In this document: in pieces, positions 425-29,524 of the stretch
Layout: each line of letters opens with the position of its first letter
Position numbering within the stretch: the stretch's first letter is position 1
Source: Planctomycetaceae bacterium
Lineage (GTDB): Bacteria > Planctomycetota > Planctomycetia > Pirellulales > Pirellulaceae
Assembly: GCA_005798335.1 (NCBI GenBank)
Contig: SYJV01000499.1
Coordinates: forward strand, 1-42,076
Length of the DNA stretch: 42,076 bases
Direction of reading: 5' to 3'
Notes under the pieces: model-generated
Databases searched by the model: none
Told to the model about the DNA's origin: nothing
What the model saw: only the letters and a program-made list of their open reading frames with translations
Made by a program: the position numbers and the translations under genes

Positions 425-3400
425 TCAGAAATCAAATTTGTCGGGTCGCCAGAGCTGGTATTGTTCGTCGAAGAGCCAGTCCCAGCGTTCGGCCTCAGTT
501 AATCCGACCATACCTACCACCTGCTCAAGCGCCGATAACACTACCCGCTGTTGCTCGGTATTATCGAGCGGGAGTGCGCTTAGTGCGAGCACTGCCTGTT
601 CCGGCGCGGTCAGAAATGCAGTCCCGAATAAAAAGTAAGGTGCTTTATCGAGAGGCAAGTCAAACGTGTCATCACCTGCGGCAAAGGCGATCTGCCGTCC
701 AAGCTGGGCGTCGTATCGGGCTATCGTGGCTCCTAACAATCCATCGCTAAGTCGGAGTTGGCTGGTCTGGTCCACTAAGCCTAAATTACACACTGGACCA
801 CGGCAACCGCTGTGGCACTGCTTGGCACTCCGCATGGCCAGCGCGCGCCATTTGAACGAGTCGAGTAATCGATGATCGATTTTAGCTGTGATGGGTAACA
901 GCGAACAAGCGACGCTGGCGGCGGTATGGAATTTCTCTTCAGAAGCAGGCACATGCTCCAATTCGTCGAAGGCCTGATATAGGAATCTGAGCGCCTGGTC
1001 GCGATCCCGGTCGGCGATAGCCGCCGCAATGGCGCCTAAAGAGTGACCACGCGCAAGTCGGGTTTTGCATGGCTGCGCCAACTTCAATGCTCGTTCGACA
1101 TCGAGTTTGGCGATGCGGTAGCAAACTCTTGGGCAATACATCTCTCGATATTCGCCGGGACAAGCATCGAGTACGAGGGCCGCGCGAACCGAATCGGTAA
1201 GAGCGATTTGATGAGCCAGATTACCGAAGAGCCGTCCACGCTTGGATTCGCGTTCGGCCGAATTATGAATAGACTGCTTTTTGTCTTGCGACCCTTTTAT
1301 CGCTGCGCGGTCTGGCGAGTCAATCTCGCTTTGAACCAAGCGCATTGCCGCCTCCACATCATATCGAGCCAATTCCCAAGCGACGGCAGAATGGGCATAG
1401 AACCAGCGTTCGTTTTCGGAAGGAATTTTTAGCGCAACTTGAGCATCTTCCAAAGCGCGTTTTGCGCGTTCGCTAGTGTCTCCTGAGTCGAAAAGAGTTC
1501 GAGCCAATCCGGCGAGGCACTCAGCTCGCCAATGCGGTTCTTTTTCCGCTTCGACGGATTGATTGGCTAACTTGATCCAAGACTGAATCCAGGGATTTTC
1601 CGCCGGCTTTTCTTCGCTGGCGCTAGCGAGTGCCTTGATGCATTCTGTGTAACCCAAAGCGCGATGATACCCATCCTTAATTGTTCTCAGCAGTTGATCG
1701 GCGGCAGTAGGATTAGTGAGAACTAATTCAGCGCACCTGTGGCTCCGAATTACCGTATCGGTGAAATCAGAAAGATCCTGTTCGTTGCCAATTGCTGCAA
1801 AGTCAATCGCATACTTACCGTGGAGATCCAATGCGGACTCTGCGTTGTGCCTGGCCAATAGCAAAAGTCCTTGGAACTTCAATCGTTCGTCGGTTCCCTC
1901 CAGTATTCGTTTGACAGTTCGTCCAAGCAATATCTTGACTGCCCGCTCCGAACTATCGCTTACGTCTGCCCACCCGACGCGCTGGGTTAGCGACTGCGAT
2001 TCTTCGTTGCGAATTAACGTGATATCGACTTGAGGTGTCCCAGGTTCAACCAACGATCCCGTCGTTTGAAAGCCGTCGGCGCGCACAAAGATCCAGGCAC
2101 CGTGGGATGGTAAATCGGTGAGGCTGACTTCACCGATTGAATCGGCGAGATGCTGTTTCGTGTGCATCCCACTCTTGTCGCCATACCAGACCTTGATTGC
2201 TGCCCGAACAGGACGTTGGTTCGAATCGACACAGCGAATCCGAACACTGAAACTCGCAGCACCACTATCGGTTCGAGGCAGCTTGAGATAATCTCGCCCC
2301 GATGTTCCTATCGAACCCTGCAATCGAGCATCTTGATGGATAGTGAATTCGCCCAGATCAAATGTCTGATCTTCCGCTTGTCCAGTGTTGGGCGGAGGAA
2401 TCGTAACCCATCGTTGAAGGTGTCCCAAGTACTCACTGCTGACCCTTTCGTCAACTTCCTCTCTAGCGCCGATCCAGATGGAGTATTCTCCGGGTGGGAC
2501 CCCATCAATCGCGAACTCGCCGGATTCATCAATGCGAAAATGGCTCGTAGGAGCCTTTACGTCCGGCCTGAAGGGGCCCTTGATGCGAGACGCAAGTGAA
2601 AACGTCCCGGTGGAAACTCGACAATTCTGGAGTTGCGCGTCCAGTCGGACTCGGCCCACAACGCGGCGTCCAACCTGTCCCAGCGTGACGTGATAGGTTT
2701 TTCCCGCGACGAGTGACATCGTCTGCGATGGTCCACTGCCTCCTTCAAGCATGGGACCGCGTTTCGCGATGATCTTGGTGGCACTAAGCGTGCCGTCAAT
2801 TCCCCCCGGCAATTCGAGAGTGAACTTTCCATGCCCATCCACCTTCGTTTGAATGTCAAAGTAACCGTATGGTCCGAAAGGTGAATCGATTCCTGACTGA
2901 CCTTCTATCTCAAATTTGATATCGGAATACTTGTCCGTCGTATCGGTTTGATATAGTTGCCCCTCGATGCGAGCATAGGGACGAACGAGAATTTCGGCCG
3001 GCGTCTTGAAATCTTGCTTACGAAGATGGGCGAATCCGCTTTTCGAGAAAACGAACAAAGTGAAATCGTCGCCGGGGTCGGTGAATGAAAACGCACCGTC
3101 GGCACTCGTCTTTACCTGTAAATCATGATTGTGGGTTATCCCTCCGGCGCGAATGTATGGTCGCGATGCCTTAGTTCCCAAGATAACGATAGCATCCTTC
3201 GCTGGCGAGCCATCCGGCTCACACACGATACCCTCAATTTGCGCAGTTGGTTTCAGTTCGAACTTCAGGTCGAGATCGCCTTCTCGGATATCATGCAGTT
3301 CTGACTCGACAGGAGCAAATCCTGGTGCTTCGATGCGAACAAAGTACTGATGATCGCTGTCGTAAATCCTCCGCCTAGCTTGACCAGTGGTAGTTTGCAC

Positions 3401-4501
3401 AGCGTCGTGGCGATTAAGTTGTCTTTCTGATCGAAGTTTTCCAATGATGATGTTGAAATTCTGAATAGTCTCGCCCGAGCTTTGATCGACGGCGCGAACC
3501 GTGACGATTGCCTCCGGAAGCATCTGGACTTCGATTGGCTTGATCGATGGCGATATGTTTTCGAGTCGAGGATGAGTCCAGCCTTGGCGGTAGAAGCCGT
3601 AGGCGAATGGTTGATCGGGTGCGCGGTTCCAAACGCACTCGCCGTTTTCGTCAGTCACAGGCTTGTCGAATTGGTCATCCCACGTGAATTTATTGAGAAC
3701 GCCATGCCATTGAGAGAACTCCAACGAGGCTCCCGAGATTGGCTTGCGGTCGGGGCCAGCGACGCGGAACCGCACCGGCGTCCCGTTTCTGAGCACCACG
3801 TCTTGCGTTAACGGTGCGCCGTTCAACCTCACCGGAATCCTGTACGGAGCATACAGCGGATGGAAAGCCACAAGGCAGGAATCGAGGTTCGGATCGCAAT
3901 GTGGAAACTGAAACCTTCCTTGTTTGTCGGAGCGCAACGTTAATGCATGATCGGTCATAACGTACGAAACCAACTTGAGCTGCACGTCTTCGATCGGCAT
4001 TCCTCGCTCATCAATGACGAGTCCGGAAAGTGGCTGACCCTTGGATAGGACTGCCTCGAATTTTTCGGACCGAAGGTGGTCAATGTCGCTCGCGGCAATT
4101 TTGCGACTCCACTGGTTGGGATCACTGCAGTAGTCGTCATGAATCAATTGTAGATCGATGGCGCTGATTTCCGAGGGAGCGTTTAAAATGCTCCACCACC
4201 CTTCCTTATCTGTAGTCGCAACGTATTTTGCGTTTCCCGACGGACTGTCAATCGAAGCGTGTACCTCCACTCCTTCAATGCCCACGGTACCATTGGAGAC
4301 AACTCCGCCAATCGGTATCCCTTTAACCAGCTTGAATTCAAAAGTTTCTGGCGGGACTTCACACTTGATTGGTCTTTGATTCCAATACTTGCTTTGATAC
4401 ACGTAGTCGGGCGACTTGACCCTAACGTTAAGCCATTGCGGACGAGTCTTGGGCCACTGGACTCGTACGACACCCTGCCCATCGCTCCGATAGTTCTCCA
4501 C
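425..4501 (-). CDS. Giant carboxypeptidase-regulatory-like repeat protein, probably the severed C-terminal part of the M56 gene
   Basis: An open frame of 1358 codons from a GTG. The first ~860 residues are a series of beta-sandwich units resembling CarboxypepD_reg or bacterial Ig-like repeats, for example residues about 60-105, 150-200, 240-295 and 425-475, each with a G-x-V...G-x-P-(I/L) entry and a D-x-x-G-x-(F/W) exit. The last ~450 residues are alpha-helical and Ala/Leu/Arg-rich, like TPR or HEAT-type repeats. The GTG has no well-spaced ribosome site. The frame stays open 23 more codons upstream, encoding the start of another such repeat (LDANGQPVANAPV), until a TAG at 4571-4573 that is also the stop of the M56 peptidase. 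Planctomycete M56 proteins often carry such repeats at their C-terminus, so this is probably the second half of one protein of about 1840 residues. Independent expression cannot be excluded. Without its membrane partner the product would lack a signal peptide. Confidence 0.75.
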   Translation of the reverse strand: MENYRSDGQGVVRVQWPKTRPQWLNVRVKSPDYVYQSKYWNQRPIKCEVPPETFEFKLVKGIPIGGVVSNGTVGIEGVEVHASIDSPSGNAKYVATTDKEGWWSILNAPSEISAIDLQLIHDDYCSDPNQWSRKIAASDIDHLRSEKFEAVLSKGQPLSGLVIDERGMPIEDVQLKLVSYVMTDHALTLRSDKQGRFQFPHCDPNLDSCLVAFHPLYAPYRIPVRLNGAPLTQDVVLRNGTPVRFRVAGPDRKPISGASLEFSQWHGVLNKFTWDDQFDKPVTDENGECVWNRAPDQPFAYGFYRQGWTHPRLENISPSIKPIEVQMLPEAIVTVRAVDQSSGETIQNFNIIIGKLRSERQLNRHDAVQTTTGQARRRIYDSDHQYFVRIEAPGFAPVESELHDIREGDLDLKFELKPTAQIEGIVCEPDGSPAKDAIVILGTKASRPYIRAGGITHNHDLQVKTSADGAFSFTDPGDDFTLFVFSKSGFAHLRKQDFKTPAEILVRPYARIEGQLYQTDTTDKYSDIKFEIEGQSGIDSPFGPYGYFDIQTKVDGHGKFTLELPGGIDGTLSATKIIAKRGPMLEGGSGPSQTMSLVAGKTYHVTLGQVGRRVVGRVRLDAQLQNCRVSTGTFSLASRIKGPFRPDVKAPTSHFRIDESGEFAIDGVPPGEYSIWIGAREEVDERVSSEYLGHLQRWVTIPPPNTGQAEDQTFDLGEFTIHQDARLQGSIGTSGRDYLKLPRTDSGAASFSVRIRCVDSNQRPVRAAIKVWYGDKSGMHTKQHLADSIGEVSLTDLPSHGAWIFVRADGFQTTGSLVEPGTPQVDITLIRNEESQSLTQRVGWADVSDSSERAVKILLGRTVKRILEGTDERLKFQGLLLLARHNAESALDLHGKYAIDFAAIGNEQDLSDFTDTVIRSHRCAELVLTNPTAADQLLRTIKDGYHRALGYTECIKALASASEEKPAENPWIQSWIKLANQSVEAEKEPHWRAECLAGLARTLFDSGDTSERAKRALEDAQVALKIPSENERWFYAHSAVAWELARYDVEAAMRLVQSEIDSPDRAAIKGSQDKKQSIHNSAERESKRGRLFGNLAHQIALTDSVRAALVLDACPGEYREMYCPRVCYRIAKLDVERALKLAQPCKTRLARGHSLGAIAAAIADRDRDQALRFLYQAFDELEHVPASEEKFHTAASVACSLLPITAKIDHRLLDSFKWRALAMRSAKQCHSGCRGPVCNLGLVDQTSQLRLSDGLLGATIARYDAQLGRQIAFAAGDDTFDLPLDKAPYFLFGTAFLTAPEQAVLALSALPLDNTEQQRVVLSALEQVVGMVGLTEAERWDWLFDEQYQLWRPDKFDF

Positions 4502-4570
4502 CTTTTCATTGCGGTACTGAAGGCAGGTCTCAACCGGCGCATTGGCAACAGGTTGGCCGTTTGCGTCGAG

Positions 4571-5950
4571 CTAATGAAACTCCGTGGTTGCAGGCCAGGG
4601 TGTGCGCGCTTGTTCATCGGAATCGGGTGTCGATGCTCCGGAAAGATTCGCATCTGCCTTGAAAGCAACTCCCTCGTTGGTTGAAGTTTGCGAAAGTCCC
4701 GGCAGCACAGCCATCGCAACCAGCAGTACGCCCAGCCCTGAAATCCAAGCAAACCTCGATCCACGAGAGATTCGTTGGTCCATAATGCGTCTAAATCGGT
4801 CGGCCAAAGGAATCCGATCTGTCGACATGCTGACAGCGAACCCCGAGCGCGGCCGATGGCAACCGCAGAGGTTCGCCACGTTGAGCAAGGTTTGACAATA
4901 CTCACTCGGACCCGCAACTCGCGATTCCAGCAGTGCGTCGTCGCAACAATCTTCCCGTACGCGACGAATAGACTTGTTCAACACCCACGCAATTGGATGA
5001 AACCACCATACGATCGCAATAACAATCTGAATGGCGTTGATCACTAAATCACCTCGCCGATGGTGAACCAATTCATGCGCCAATGCCACTCGAAGTTCTT
5101 CGTCAGATAAGTGCCCGGCGCAAATGGATGGGACAACAATCGTCGGTCGCAGTACACCGAAAGAATATGGGCCAGTCCTTTCCGAACTGACGAGTAATTC
5201 AGGCAATCGACGTACTTGTAAGACTTTGGCAGTCTCGCGATACGTAGCTTCCAAGCGTCGGTCAGGACTCATCATGGATCGCCTGAGTCGATGAAGGCGC
5301 AACAAGCGAACACTCAGCATCGCAATGCAAACTAGCATCCCAAATGCATGCGCGAGTACAAGCCAACCTAGGCCGCTGACCGCCGCGATTGGAATCATGG
5401 CGGCCTTGAGCCAAGCTTCGGTCTGTGAAACGTTGCCCGATCCGACAATTGATTGGCGCAAGTGGATGGAGGCGCTGGACGATTCGTTTATTGGCGATTG
5501 AATCACGCCAGCCAGCAGGTCGCGCGCGGATGAAGCTGTAATCGACTCGCTGTGCCTACTCGGTTCGATAGGAACTGTGGCCTCACTTTGCGACTCAGAC
5601 CGACGACTGGCTGATTGTCCTTGCACTTCCGAAAGCTGTGTCACGGTAGCAATCGTACTTTGGCTGCCGATGATTTCCTTTGTTCCGCCCGCTTGTACAT
5701 TTGCAGAAATCTCAGCTCTCGAAATTTCAATCCAACCGAATACTCCAGTCGGTAACGAGTAAAGCGGCGGGAACGCAAATTTGGCCAACGCAACCAACAA
5801 GATTGCATATCGAATTCGGGCTGAAATACGCTCGGCCCATCGAACAAAGAGTATCAAGATGCAACCAACCAAAGCCGCTTGCCAAGCCGCATTCCCAACC
5901 TGCCAAGTCCATGTATCCGCGAGACTATTGAACGCCTGCACCATGTTCAT
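4571..5950 (-). CDS. M56 family (BlaR1/MecR1-like) membrane metallopeptidase
   Basis: A polytopic membrane protease of the BlaR1/MecR1 type, which in known systems senses an outside signal and leads to cleavage of its cognate BlaI repressor. Hydrophobic segments lie near residues 22-38, 47-64, 184-215, about 305-325 and near the C-terminus (VLLVAMAVLPGL). The zinc motif HELVH is at 292-296, followed by the EDCCDD stretch typical of the family. A Ser/Gln/Glu-rich loop at about 85-180 probably lies outside the membrane. The ATG overlaps the blaI stop by four bases (ATGA), so the two are translationally coupled. The protein stops at a TAG just after the last membrane segment and a short linker, exactly where carboxypeptidase-like repeats begin in the same frame downstream. 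It therefore looks truncated relative to planctomycete homologues that carry an extracytoplasmic repeat domain. The signal is unknown; beta-lactams are only one possibility. Confidence 0.88.
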   Translation of the reverse strand: MNMVQAFNSLADTWTWQVGNAAWQAALVGCILILFVRWAERISARIRYAILLVALAKFAFPPLYSLPTGVFGWIEISRAEISANVQAGGTKEIIGSQSTIATVTQLSEVQGQSASRRSESQSEATVPIEPSRHSESITASSARDLLAGVIQSPINESSSASIHLRQSIVGSGNVSQTEAWLKAAMIPIAAVSGLGWLVLAHAFGMLVCIAMLSVRLLRLHRLRRSMMSPDRRLEATYRETAKVLQVRRLPELLVSSERTGPYSFGVLRPTIVVPSICAGHLSDEELRVALAHELVHHRRGDLVINAIQIVIAIVWWFHPIAWVLNKSIRRVREDCCDDALLESRVAGPSEYCQTLLNVANLCGCHRPRSGFAVSMSTDRIPLADRFRRIMDQRISRGSRFAWISGLGVLLVAMAVLPGLSQTSTNEGVAFKADANLSGASTPDSDEQARTPWPATTEFH

Positions 5951-6493: not shown

Positions 6494-6734
6494 TATTTTC
6501 AATTAGCAAATATGCCAGGGTGCACTACCACCAACGATTTGACGATAGGCAAGCCAACAGAATCAAACAATAGTGTTGCGTAATCCTGTTCGATGTGCGA
6601 GATAAGTATGGTAATTTATGGTCAACGAAGTGAACCACAATTCAATTGAGTGTCGGAAGCACGCAAGTCCAAAATCGAACCTGGTTGCGGTGGCCGATGC
6701 ATCTTGCAGTCGAAGTTTATAAAAGGAATGGAAC

Positions 6735-20759: not shown

Positions 20760-21541
20760 TGCCAGCGCCGAAACTGGGAGGACTTTTAAAGGCCAAGATG
20801 TTGCGTGGCGAAACCGTGTACGGGACGCTGATCCAGAACGCGGTGACACCGGCGCTGGTCGACTTTCTGCCTGAGAATACGCTAGATTTTGTGATTGTCA
20901 GCGCGGAGCACAACTCGCTAGACCTGGCTGAGTTCATGCCGCTGCGTTATGCGCTTGCCGGCAAGGGGATCGCTTGTCTGGCGCGAACGCACAGTCGCGA
21001 ACCGGATGATGTTTCTAAAGTCTGCGATTCCTTTGATGGCGTCGTCGTGCCCTACGTCGAGGATGTCGAGCACGCCAAGCGACTGGCTGCGGCGGCGGTG
21101 TATCGACCGCTGAAGGGCCAGGCGCTCCAGAGAGTGCTCAGCGAAGGAAAATGGCCCAGTGAGAAGACTCGGCGTTACGTCACGGAAGAGAAATGCGCGG
21201 ACACGGTCTTTATCCCTATGATCGAATCGGTGTTGGGCGTTGAAAACGTCGAGGCAATTTGTTCGATCCCTGGTGTGAACGCGCTGTTCATCGGACCGAA
21301 TGACCTGACCACGAATATGGGAATTCCCAATGAATATGAACATCCCGATTTGTTGAAAATGATTCAGCGAGTCATCGATAGCGCCAATAGTCGGCACATT
21401 GCGGCGGGATGTTGGTTCGGCAAACCAGAGCAAGCGTTGAGAACGATTCGGCAGGGAGCCAGGCTGGTAGTTTATTCGAACGATAGCAACATGTTGCGCG
21501 ACGCGATGGTCCAAGCATTCACTCAGTTTCGCAAAGGTTGA
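20759..21541 (+). CDS. HpcH/HpaI aldolase family protein
   Basis: A 260-residue class II (metal-dependent) pyruvate aldolase of the HpcH/HpaI family, which splits 2-keto-3-deoxy sugar acids or 4-hydroxy-2-oxo acids. Recognisable blocks are VYGTLIQN, DFVIVSAEHNSLD (the catalytic region), LARTHSREPDDV, GVVVPYVEDVEHAK, FIPMIES (metal Glu), ALFIGPNDLTTNMG (metal Asp) and a C-terminal cap. GAGGAG at 20745-20750 is 8 bases before the ATG at 20759, whose TGATG overlap with the FAH stop indicates translational coupling. A GTG one codon earlier is also possible. The neighbouring FAH enzyme suggests a shared sugar-acid catabolic route that ends in pyruvate. Confidence 0.9.
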   Translation: MPAPKLGGLLKAKMLRGETVYGTLIQNAVTPALVDFLPENTLDFVIVSAEHNSLDLAEFMPLRYALAGKGIACLARTHSREPDDVSKVCDSFDGVVVPYVEDVEHAKRLAAAAVYRPLKGQALQRVLSEGKWPSEKTRRYVTEEKCADTVFIPMIESVLGVENVEAICSIPGVNALFIGPNDLTTNMGIPNEYEHPDLLKMIQRVIDSANSRHIAAGCWFGKPEQALRTIRQGARLVVYSNDSNMLRDAMVQAFTQFRKG

Positions 21542-21549
21542 ACAAGGCC

Positions 21550-22245
21550 ATGGCCAAGACGATTCTTGGGATCGGTGCGCACTACGACGACTGTGTGTTT
21601 GGGATTCCTGGCATCCTGCTCAAGTCAGTGCGCAAAAACTATCGCGTCGTGGTATTGAATCTGATCGGCGACTATCGAAATTGGCCGCCGGTGAAAGGAC
21701 GAGATCGCGAGTTGGTGGACGGTTCGATTCGTTTATCCGCTTCATTTGGCATCGAAATGGAGTTTCTGGATTTCGCGGGCAGCCGCTTTGAAGATAATCT
21801 GGCGGCCAAACAAGCGGTCGCGCGCAAAGTAGCTCAAATTCAGCCCGAGGTCGCGTTCATGTTGTGGCCGCACGATCGACATTCGGATCACGAGGTTGCA
21901 TCGCGACTGAGCACCGTTGCACTGAAACATGCCGATCGGTTGCTGGACGAGCCAGTCGCATTTCGTCCGGCGCGCCGCAATTATTGGTATGACAATGGTC
22001 CCGGACATACGATCGGATTCGAGCCCAACACCTTCGTTGATGTGACCGACGAATGGCCACAGGCGATGGATTGGCTGGGTAAGTTAATGGCTCTAATGCG
22101 CAACGTAAATTACGATATGCACAAACTGGACGGGGCCCAGCGCACCAAAGAAGTTTTGGCCGCGTATCGTGGTACAACTTGCGGAGTGCGTTACGCTGAA
22201 GCTTTGCGGAGTGTCAATGAATATCCGCAGGAGATACTCTCGTAG
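21550..22245 (+). CDS. PIG-L (LmbE-like) family deacetylase
   Basis: A 231-residue zinc-dependent N-deacetylase of the PIG-L/LmbE group, which removes acetyl groups from N-acetylglucosamine-type substrates. The family motif AHPDD appears as AHYDD in ILGIGAHYDDCVFG, and the second block reads WPHDRHSDHEVASRL with the zinc histidine. The substitution of Pro by Tyr is unusual but keeps the His and Asp residues. The ATG at 21550 lies eight bases after the aldolase stop; a TTG at 21538 overlapping that stop is the alternative. As the last gene of the FAH-aldolase operon it suggests that the catabolised sugar is N-acetylated. Confidence 0.88.
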   Translation: MAKTILGIGAHYDDCVFGIPGILLKSVRKNYRVVVLNLIGDYRNWPPVKGRDRELVDGSIRLSASFGIEMEFLDFAGSRFEDNLAAKQAVARKVAQIQPEVAFMLWPHDRHSDHEVASRLSTVALKHADRLLDEPVAFRPARRNYWYDNGPGHTIGFEPNTFVDVTDEWPQAMDWLGKLMALMRNVNYDMHKLDGAQRTKEVLAAYRGTTCGVRYAEALRSVNEYPQEILS

Positions 22246-25963: not shown

Positions 25964-28900
25964 ATGGCGACACGTCCGTTTGTTCATCTCCATTGTCACA
26001 GCCACTATAGTCTGCTGGATGGGGCTAGTTCGATCAACAAACTGATCGATCGCGCAAAGCAGCACGGCATGAATGCGTTGGCTCTAACGGACCATGGCAA
26101 TCTTCACGGCGCACTGGAGTTCTATCAAAAAGCGAAAGCCAGTGGGATTAATCCGATCATCGGCTACGAAGCCTACGTAGCACCCGGCAGTCGATTTACG
26201 CGCGAAGCCGCCAATTCCAAAGAAGCCGCGTATCATTTGACGCTGCTGGCGCAAAATACGGTTGGCTTTAAGAATCTGATCAAGTTGGCTTCGAAGGCCA
26301 GCCTGGAAGGATTTTATTTCAAGCCGCGCATCGATCGCGAACTGTTGGCCGAATTGTCGGAAGGGATCATCTGTCTGAGCGGCTGTGTGTCGAGCGAATT
26401 CTCGCGAGCGATTCTTCGTGGCGGTGACACGTCTCAGATGGAGCATCAAGCGATCCGCATCGCGCAATGGTTTCACCAAGTGTTTGGCGAGCGGTACTTT
26501 GTCGAAATCATGAATAACGGTGTACCGATTCAAGCCCAAGCCTTGCAAGGTGCGGTGGCGATCGCGAACCGAATTGGCCTGCCCTTGGTAGCCACCAGCG
26601 ACGCGCATTATGTCGATCGCAGCGATGCGGAAATTCAGGATGTGTTATTGTGTATAAACACGGGCAAGTTTCGCACCGATAGCAACCGCATGAAAATGGA
26701 AGGCGATCAGTTTTTTCTGCGCTCGCCCGAAGAAATGTATTCGCATTTTCCGGGTTTGGAGAGCGCTGTAGAGCGCAGCCAGTCGATTGCGGACTCAGTC
26801 GATATCGAATTGGAATTGGGCAAGCGACATTTCCCGCGTTATTCTTTGCCTGGGCAGCGCGAACCGGATGAGTATCTACGCGAAGTTTGCATATTGGGAT
26901 TAAAGGAGCGTTACTGGGGTGACGAGCTGATGTTGCCCGGCGGACAACTGTGCCAAGTTGTTGCCGATCGGTTGGATCGCGAGCTGGGTGTAATTGGACG
27001 GCTTGGTTTTGCCAACTATTTCTTGATCGTGTGGGACTTTGTTCGCCACGCTCGCGAACAAGGTGTACCAGCCACCGCGCGTGGCAGCGGTGTCGGTGCA
27101 CTGGTTTGTTATGCGCTCTATTTGAGCCATGTTTGTCCCATCAAATACGATCTACTGTTCGAGCGATTTCTGGATGAAAATCGTAGAGAAGCTCCTGATA
27201 TCGATATTGATTTTTGTAAGGACCGGCGGGCGGAGATTATTCAATACGTTCGCGATAAGTACGGCGAAGCCAATGTGGCTCAGATTGGAACGTTTGGGAC
27301 TCTGCAAGCTCGAGCTGCGATCAAAGATGTTGGTCGCGCGTTGGGTATGCCTTTGGCTCGCGTCAATCAGATTACTGAAATGGTGCCCGAAGAGCTGAAG
27401 ATCACCATTGACAAGGCGATCGAAAAGAACGAGGAACTGGCCAATCTCTATGCCAGCGACAATGAGATTCGAGAGTTATTGGATTTCGCCAAAAAACTTG
27501 AAGGGCTCGCTCGTAACGTCGGTACGCACGCGGCGGCGGTGGTGATCGCCGATCAACCCTTGACTGAGTATGTGCCTCTGGGGCGAGTGTCGGGCAAGAG
27601 CGATATTATCACGCAATGGTCGATGGGCGACGTCGAGTCGGCTGGATTGCTGAAGATGGACTTTCTCGGGCTTCGCAACTTGACGATTCTCGCCAAAGCG
27701 GTCGAGATTATCGAACAAACGCGCGCCACGAAATTGGACATCCTGCGTTTGCCAATGGACGATGTGGCCACGTTTGCTCTGTTACAGCGCGGAGAAACTA
27801 AAGGTGTGTTTCAATTGGAAAGTGGCGGAATTCGCGATCTTCTCCAACGTATGAAACCTGACCATTTTCGCGATATCATCGCTACTAATGCGCTCTATCG
27901 GCCGGGACCGCTGGAGGGCGGTATGGTCGACGACTATGTGGCGGTAAAGCATGGCCGCAAACAGGCGGAGTATATTCATCCGGTGATGAAGGAAATCCTG
28001 GAAGAAACGCACGGAGTGATGGTCTACCAGGAACAAATCATGCGCATCTTGAATCGCTTGGGAGGTATCGAGCTAGCCAACGCATACACTTGTATCAAAG
28101 CGATTAGCAAGAAAAAAGAATCGCTGATCGCCCAGAATGAATCGAAGTTCATGCAGGGGGCAGTCGAGAAAGGTGTATCCGAGCGGGAAGCGCGCCAGCT
28201 ATGGGAAATGATTCTCAAATTTGCGGGATATGGATTTAACAAGAGCCACTCCACTGCTTATGCGCTGGTCGCTTATCAGACCGCTTATTTGAAAGCTCAT
28301 TATCCGGTTGAATTCATGGCGGCATTGCTTTCTGGCGATATTCAAGGAAGAAATTTCAAGCGTAAAGATTCGCTAGTCGAACATTTCGAAGATTGTAAAC
28401 GCATGGGGATCACTGTCGTTCCTCCCGATGTCAATCATTCCAATTTCGACTTTACCGTGGCCGATGGAAAAATCCTCTTCGGCATGGCCGCGATTAAAGG
28501 CTGCGGGAATTCAGCAGGCGAAGCGATCGTTCGCGCTCGAAACAAAGGAGGACAATTCACGTCGATTTTCGATTTTAGCGAGCGTGTCGATCCAACCGAA
28601 TGTAACCGTGCGACCATCGAAACGCTGATCAAAGCCGGTGCCTTTGACTCAATCGCTAGCAACCGAGCAGCACTCTTGGCAGTGGTGGAGAAAGCGATTC
28701 AGGCTGGATCAGCCGCGCTGGCCGATCGCAAGAGTGGACAGATGAATTTGTTCGATTGCTTCGCTGAGGAATCGACTACGACTTCCAAGCCCACACTGTC
28801 GTTACCCGACATTCCGGAATTTCCAGAGAACACGAGACTGTCCATGGAGCGCGACGTGCTTGGCATGTATTTCTCCAGTCATCCACTGGCACGCTATGAA

Positions 28901-29524
28901 GAATCGTTCAAATCGTTTTGCACACATACCTCGGACCAAATCAAAAATGTCAAGAATCGAGCCGAAGTCTATGTGGGCGGAATGATCTCCTCGATCAAGA
29001 CAGCCAATACGCGAAATCCCAAACCTGGCGCGCCGAGCAAATATGCCAACTTCGATTTGGAAGACATGGAGGGTGCCATGCGCTGCATCATGTGGCCAGA
29101 GGGATTTGCGGCCACTGGCCACCTGGTTCAACCTGAAGCCGTCGTTGTGATTCGAGCCACAGTGGACAAACGGGACGGCGGCGACGAATTCAATTTGTTT
29201 GTCAATGAACTGATGCCGGTCGAGGAAGCCAATTCTCGCTTTACATCCGGAATTCGCATCTCCATCGACGAAGCCAGCCATACCAGCGAACTGATCCCAA
29301 AGCTGAACGAGGTACTGCGCGGCTATCCTGGGAAAATGGAAGTCGCGCTCGATGTTCAGCTCACCGAGGGTGAAACTGTGCACATCAAAGTACGGCGCCA
29401 TCGCGTGGATATTAATCCTGAATTAAGAAATCGGCTCGACAATTTATTGGGGCAAGGAAAACACCGGTTGATAATGTCGCCGCCAACTCCGAAAGCACCC
29501 TCCACTCCTCGACGAGCCAGGTAG
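25964..29524 (+). CDS. dnaE: DNA polymerase III subunit alpha
   Basis: The replicative polymerase of 1186 residues, close to the 1160 of E. coli. Domains in order: PHP (1-280), palm with the catalytic PDIDIDF (D412 and D414), thumb, fingers (about 560-810), helix-hairpin-helix (about 850-910), OB-fold (VYVGGMISSIKTANTR, about 1000-1080) and a C-terminal tau-binding-like region. In the PHP domain the metal-site residues H10, H12, D19, H44, E69, H91, C141, D213 and H215 are all present, unlike in E. coli, so it may be an active 3'-5' proofreading exonuclease (inference). GAAGGA lies 7 bases before the ATG. The stop is TAG. Confidence 0.97.
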   Translation: MATRPFVHLHCHSHYSLLDGASSINKLIDRAKQHGMNALALTDHGNLHGALEFYQKAKASGINPIIGYEAYVAPGSRFTREAANSKEAAYHLTLLAQNTVGFKNLIKLASKASLEGFYFKPRIDRELLAELSEGIICLSGCVSSEFSRAILRGGDTSQMEHQAIRIAQWFHQVFGERYFVEIMNNGVPIQAQALQGAVAIANRIGLPLVATSDAHYVDRSDAEIQDVLLCINTGKFRTDSNRMKMEGDQFFLRSPEEMYSHFPGLESAVERSQSIADSVDIELELGKRHFPRYSLPGQREPDEYLREVCILGLKERYWGDELMLPGGQLCQVVADRLDRELGVIGRLGFANYFLIVWDFVRHAREQGVPATARGSGVGALVCYALYLSHVCPIKYDLLFERFLDENRREAPDIDIDFCKDRRAEIIQYVRDKYGEANVAQIGTFGTLQARAAIKDVGRALGMPLARVNQITEMVPEELKITIDKAIEKNEELANLYASDNEIRELLDFAKKLEGLARNVGTHAAAVVIADQPLTEYVPLGRVSGKSDIITQWSMGDVESAGLLKMDFLGLRNLTILAKAVEIIEQTRATKLDILRLPMDDVATFALLQRGETKGVFQLESGGIRDLLQRMKPDHFRDIIATNALYRPGPLEGGMVDDYVAVKHGRKQAEYIHPVMKEILEETHGVMVYQEQIMRILNRLGGIELANAYTCIKAISKKKESLIAQNESKFMQGAVEKGVSEREARQLWEMILKFAGYGFNKSHSTAYALVAYQTAYLKAHYPVEFMAALLSGDIQGRNFKRKDSLVEHFEDCKRMGITVVPPDVNHSNFDFTVADGKILFGMAAIKGCGNSAGEAIVRARNKGGQFTSIFDFSERVDPTECNRATIETLIKAGAFDSIASNRAALLAVVEKAIQAGSAALADRKSGQMNLFDCFAEESTTTSKPTLSLPDIPEFPENTRLSMERDVLGMYFSSHPLARYEESFKSFCTHTSDQIKNVKNRAEVYVGGMISSIKTANTRNPKPGAPSKYANFDLEDMEGAMRCIMWPEGFAATGHLVQPEAVVVIRATVDKRDGGDEFNLFVNELMPVEEANSRFTSGIRISIDEASHTSELIPKLNEVLRGYPGKMEVALDVQLTEGETVHIKVRRHRVDINPELRNRLDNLLGQGKHRLIMSPPTPKAPSTPRRAR

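Follow-up and report, generated by a model that had tools for sequence, protein, structure and literature searches.

An M56 peptidase gene on the minus strand of the window (the whole stretch of 42,076 nucleotides analysed here; it belongs to contig C468 of a draft genome of 8.46 Mb in 558 contigs) ends at a TAG codon, and beyond this codon the same frame stays open for another 1381 codons. Is this one gene that was interrupted, are these two genes, or is the stop read through? Translation of the window's ORFs gave a single frame of 459 codons, TAG, 1381 codons and a TGA at 425-427, in which the first start codon after the TAG is a GTG at 4501, 23 codons (69 bases) on. No further stop or frameshift was found in the 1381 downstream codons. 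An open stretch of this length has a chance probability of ~2.9e-27 at this base composition, and the G+C pattern at the three codon positions is coding-like along the whole downstream frame. Thus the layout described in the original prediction, i.e., an M56 stop followed in the same frame by 23 codons, a 1358-codon frame and an otherwise intact reading frame, is borne out (Table 1). Based on the data below we consider it highly probable that this is one M56-repeat sensor gene interrupted by TAG, be it in the organism itself or in the assembled sequence alone.

Table 1. Positions in the window of the interrupted frame, its upstream neighbour and two genes that end in TAG
Feature	Position	Strand	Evidence or remark
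BlaI/Penicillinase_R-family repressor, 155 aa	5947..6414	-	PF03965, 81.3 bits (cut-off 22.6)
M56 (BlaR1-type) membrane metallopeptidase, 459 aa to the TAG, HELVH motif	4571..5950	-	PF05569, 119.5 bits (cut-off 31)
In-frame TAG, inside first beta strand of first repeat domain	4571..4573	-	Alignment of homologues
23 sense codons (LDANGQPVANAPV...) from TAG to first start codon, continuing first repeat domain	4502..4570	-	Translation
1358-codon GTG-started frame: carboxypeptidase-regulatory-like repeats, then C-terminal module	425..4501	-	PF13620, three stretches
C-terminal module, ~600-620 residues	425-2290	-	No Pfam match above cut-off, no NCBIfam match
PIG-L gene, TAG-ended	21538-22245		
dnaE, TAG-ended	25964-29524		

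The gene directly upstream, on the same strand, encodes a BlaI-family repressor whose TGA overlaps the start codon of M56 (ATGA), indicating that the two form a BlaI-M56 operon. The arrangement resembles that of the BlaR1/MecR1-BlaI/MecI pairs (PF05569 with PF03965), in which the repressor also comes first, the codons overlap and the peptidase has an extracytoplasmic C-terminal region; the window ectodomain, however, is made of carboxypeptidase-like repeats, whereas that of BlaR1/MecR1 is a penicillin-binding domain. The whole-protein NCBIfam model blaR1_generic (NF000326) gave 96.1 bits against a cut-off of 400, so that by this model the protein does not qualify as a BlaR1 beta-lactam sensor. 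The M56 part passes its Pfam cut-off (Table 1), and the HExxH zinc motif is present in its translation as HELVH. After the stop, CarboxypepD_reg scored 95.8 bits in all over three stretches, in agreement with the carboxypeptidase-like repeats first read there, and Pfam matches to DUF6795 and MG4 start 2-3 residues past the TAG. When the read-through protein was scanned with Pfam, a sub-threshold Big_1 match alone spanned the stop, with a gain of ~1 bit, and the other domains gained nothing. For the repeats NCBIfam returned one sub-threshold lipoprotein match and nothing more, a phmmer search of the 1381-aa frame against the PDB gave no match at E <= 0.01, and a protein scan of the genome contig collection with the 1358-aa frame gave 8 pattern matches, of which none was confirmed. 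The C-terminal module has relatives in proteins whose N-termini are signal-like, and on contig C235 of genome G028 (L157) three of these stand in tandem; the module and M56 were not seen in one frame among the loci examined.

With the own genome excluded, 29 loci homologous to the downstream part were examined, 9 of them taken from 23 matches in one search and 20 from 59 matches in a search of 241 family genomes. L057 is truncated at the edge of its contig, which leaves 28 informative loci. At 20 of these, M56 and the repeats lie in one frame that crosses the junction without a stop; the other eight (L049, L054, L055, L086, L087, L088, L095, L100) encode repeat proteins that stand alone, the sequence retrieved around them giving no M56 match; and a stop at the junction was found at none of the 28. 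The junctions of the 20 fused homologues were aligned with that of the window by MAFFT, and in these homologues the column of the window stop has V (14), I (4), L (1) or A (1), hydrophobic in every case and with no adjacent gap. As this column is a hydrophobic residue of the first strand, the TAG lies inside the first repeat domain and not in a linker. The window thus has what is expected of a gene interrupted by a nonsense codon: all 20 homologues carry a sense codon inside a domain, and homology continues in the same frame past the stop.

Planctomycete M56 proteins with long repeat ectodomains (L052 of G011, L053 of G037 and L102 of G098) share a common order of M56, last membrane helix, linker and first repeat, and the first carboxypeptidase-like repeat of the window has the same strand pattern as theirs. 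These three are uninterrupted single frames of 1307-1415 aa, whereas in the window the first repeat contains a TAG. Elsewhere in the window genome M56 occurs at six more places, all in longer stop-free frames (651-1364 aa), and among the four inspected, L003 and L006 carry similar repeats and L005 and L007 other ectodomains. The prevalence of fused homologues and the lack of a stop at the junction in any of them support the earlier proposal that a single protein of M56 and repeats was divided, either by a recent nonsense change or through an error.

We propose that the ancestral single gene was the second gene of the BlaI-M56 operon and would have encoded a BlaR1-like membrane sensor, with M56 at the N-terminus followed by the last transmembrane helix, a short linker, long extracytoplasmic repeats and the C-terminal module. 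In BlaR1-type systems the ectodomain senses an outside signal, M56 is activated and BlaI is released from DNA, and judged by these systems the normal state of the window sensor would be similar. The TAG would end the protein ~45 residues past the last membrane helix and remove the whole ectodomain, so that if translation stops there the most that the cell would make is a membrane peptidase that retains HELVH and lacks the sensing part. The 1381 downstream codons would then be untranslated or nearly so, and they may look intact since the change is recent or exists in the consensus only. As short M56 frames that have no ectodomain exist in relatives (L137-L140, 354-397 aa), the leftover piece need not be useless.

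These short frames are also consistent with two working genes, one for an M56 peptidase that ends with the TAG and one for a repeat protein translated separately, through coupling or from an internal start. The stand-alone repeat proteins at 8 of the 28 homologous loci point in the same direction, and so does contig C37 of G011, a genome of the same genus, where M56 occupies a frame of 834 aa and a second, separate frame of 576 aa behind it matches the C-terminal part of the window protein. All eight stand-alone homologues, however, carry a hydrophobic segment at the N-terminus (Kyte-Doolittle mean over the best 15 residues 1.78-2.70), whereas in the 150 codons after the TAG no transmembrane-like or signal-like segment was found (best mean 1.17), so that a product of the downstream part is predicted not to be exported. 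The C37 locus likewise indicates that split layouts occur, though with an export signal that is absent from the window. In addition, as the GTG lies inside the first repeat domain, a product made from it would lose that domain. This GTG has no Shine-Dalgarno-like stretch, which is weak evidence, many planctomycete genes having none. Homologues divided at this very point, with separate ribosome sites, the case that would have refuted the original prediction, were not found among the 28 informative loci, and the stand-alone proteins are not such a case since they carry their own signal-like N-terminus. On balance two working genes appear unlikely, and for annotation the two ORFs are better described as one interrupted gene than as an M56 peptidase plus a separate giant protein; beyond annotation the significance of the stop is small. 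The G011 locus (L154:3084-8955) has two separate frames after M56, 576 and 503 aa long; it is the 576-aa one whose N-terminus is signal-like and whose sequence is similar to the window's C-terminal module.

Programmed or regulated readthrough of the TAG, yielding a minority of full-length sensor, would suit a downstream frame that is open for all of its 1381 codons, and single in-frame stops with a homologous frame continuing are seen in other M56 genes of the order. In-frame stops occur in G028 C81 (TAA), G007 C130 (TGA), G007 C633 (TAG and TAA) and G037 C8 (TAG). These stops, however, are of all three kinds and fall at unrelated places (mid-M56, ectodomain, repeats), which argues for scattered decay or errors and against a recoding signal at a conserved site. 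Inside the M56 domain in-frame stops are rare, with one in 149 matches in 20 genomes. Elsewhere in the window TAG terminates normally: all seven other TAG-ended ORFs kept there, dnaE and the PIG-L gene among them, have a Pfam match, and in each the next stop follows within 2-24 codons. RF1 is present (435.3 bits, cut-off 423.25). A CUA anticodon was found in none of 27 tRNA loci, a weak result as scoring covered 150 of 291 candidates and the set lacks several isotypes. None of the 28 homologues has a stop conserved at the same place and in the only orthologue found the junction is deleted, so that the conservation expected of recoding is not seen. The earlier view that readthrough is less likely, as TAG serves as a normal stop in dnaE and the PIG-L gene, is therefore upheld, and we regard readthrough as very improbable. 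Still harder to credit is a general switch, by which leaky or reversible in-frame stops would turn the M56 sensors of this planctomycete order from a short sensorless peptidase into a full-length sensor and back; on that reading the window TAG may be one switching case, and the M56 genes with stops in G007, G028 and G037 may be others. Rather than a new kind of regulation, the most likely explanation is that the gene broke recently in the ordinary way or that the sequence contains an error.

As for the other interrupted genes themselves, the one on G028 C81 (L050:3275-9757) is an M56-repeat gene with an in-frame TAA at 6713-6715, mid-repeat, and its homology to the window protein crosses the TAA. 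A long open frame past the stops is also present in L141 (G007 C633; TAG, TAA), L133 (G007 C130; TGA) and L134 (G037 C8; TAG); homology crosses the stops in L133 and L141, and in L134 a match across the stop was obtained in one search only. The latter three are the interrupted ones among 20 loci chosen as the shortest or stop-bearing among the M56 matches listed, a biased choice that gives no rate. In a control with the downstream query, an in-frame stop was found in one of 59 non-own matches from the 241 family genomes (no more than two candidates scored in each), namely the remnant in G013.

Within the preferred explanation of one interrupted gene, the TAG may exist only in the draft consensus, due to base-calling, assembly or strain mixture, while the living gene is whole. 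The genome being a 558-contig draft, and the downstream frame being intact with a coding-like composition, are consistent with such an artefact. Yet 19 of the 20 residues in the stop column (V, I or A) are at least two substitutions from TAG, so that a one-base error is no simple fit; as these residues are not one base from TAG, either the ancestral residue differed from that of most relatives or more than one change took place. In addition, in the G013 assembly the orthologue is genuinely degraded or deleted, which makes actual decay plausible as well. We therefore view a consensus artefact as a serious possibility, though a somewhat doubtful one. If the change is real and the downstream part neutral, the TAG must be young: a neutral frame this long would be re-broken with 95% probability after ~17-33 changes, or 0.4-0.8% divergence, when indels are assumed to be 5-15% of substitutions, and after 71 changes, or 1.7% divergence, when indels are left out.

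The only orthologue found belongs to G013, the MAG Pirellulaceae bacterium SJ586 of the same genus, in which the remnant lies on contig C59 (JADYZV010000059.1; L048:7204-8197). Among the 241 family genomes, BlaI was matched at E <= 1e-30 in the window genome and G013 alone, and the downstream part was matched at more than 60% identity in G013 only, with no more than two candidates scored per genome; a scan of the genome contig collection with the BlaI alignment returned one locus, the G013 record. The G013 BlaI is intact and 71% identical to that of the window. Its M56-repeat gene is reduced to three recognisable pieces that stand in different frames, namely 17 codons from its start, 38 codons that correspond to window 2615-2728 and 75 codons from its end, and ~3.2 kb and ~2.0 kb of window sequence have no counterpart there, indicating two large deletions. 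Thus the two loci share an orthologous BlaI, the M56 start and the C-terminus, but G013 keeps fragments only, and as the junction is deleted G013 is silent on whether the TAG was once there. No conserved neighbours beyond BlaI-M56 were found in the first 20 kb of the G013 contig. As the sole orthologue found survives only in pieces next to a BlaI that is whole, cells seem able to do without such a sensor, and the fresh stop here together with the deletion remnant in G013 suggests a turnover of the expanded BlaI-M56 sensor systems in Pirellulaceae in which the sensor is lost and the repressor stays. Between the window and G013, pN and pS are 0.181 and 0.731 for BlaI, 0.137 and 0.714 for the last 75 codons, and 0.200 and 0.553 for the 38-codon piece, indicating that purifying selection acted on the protein over much of the period after the two diverged.
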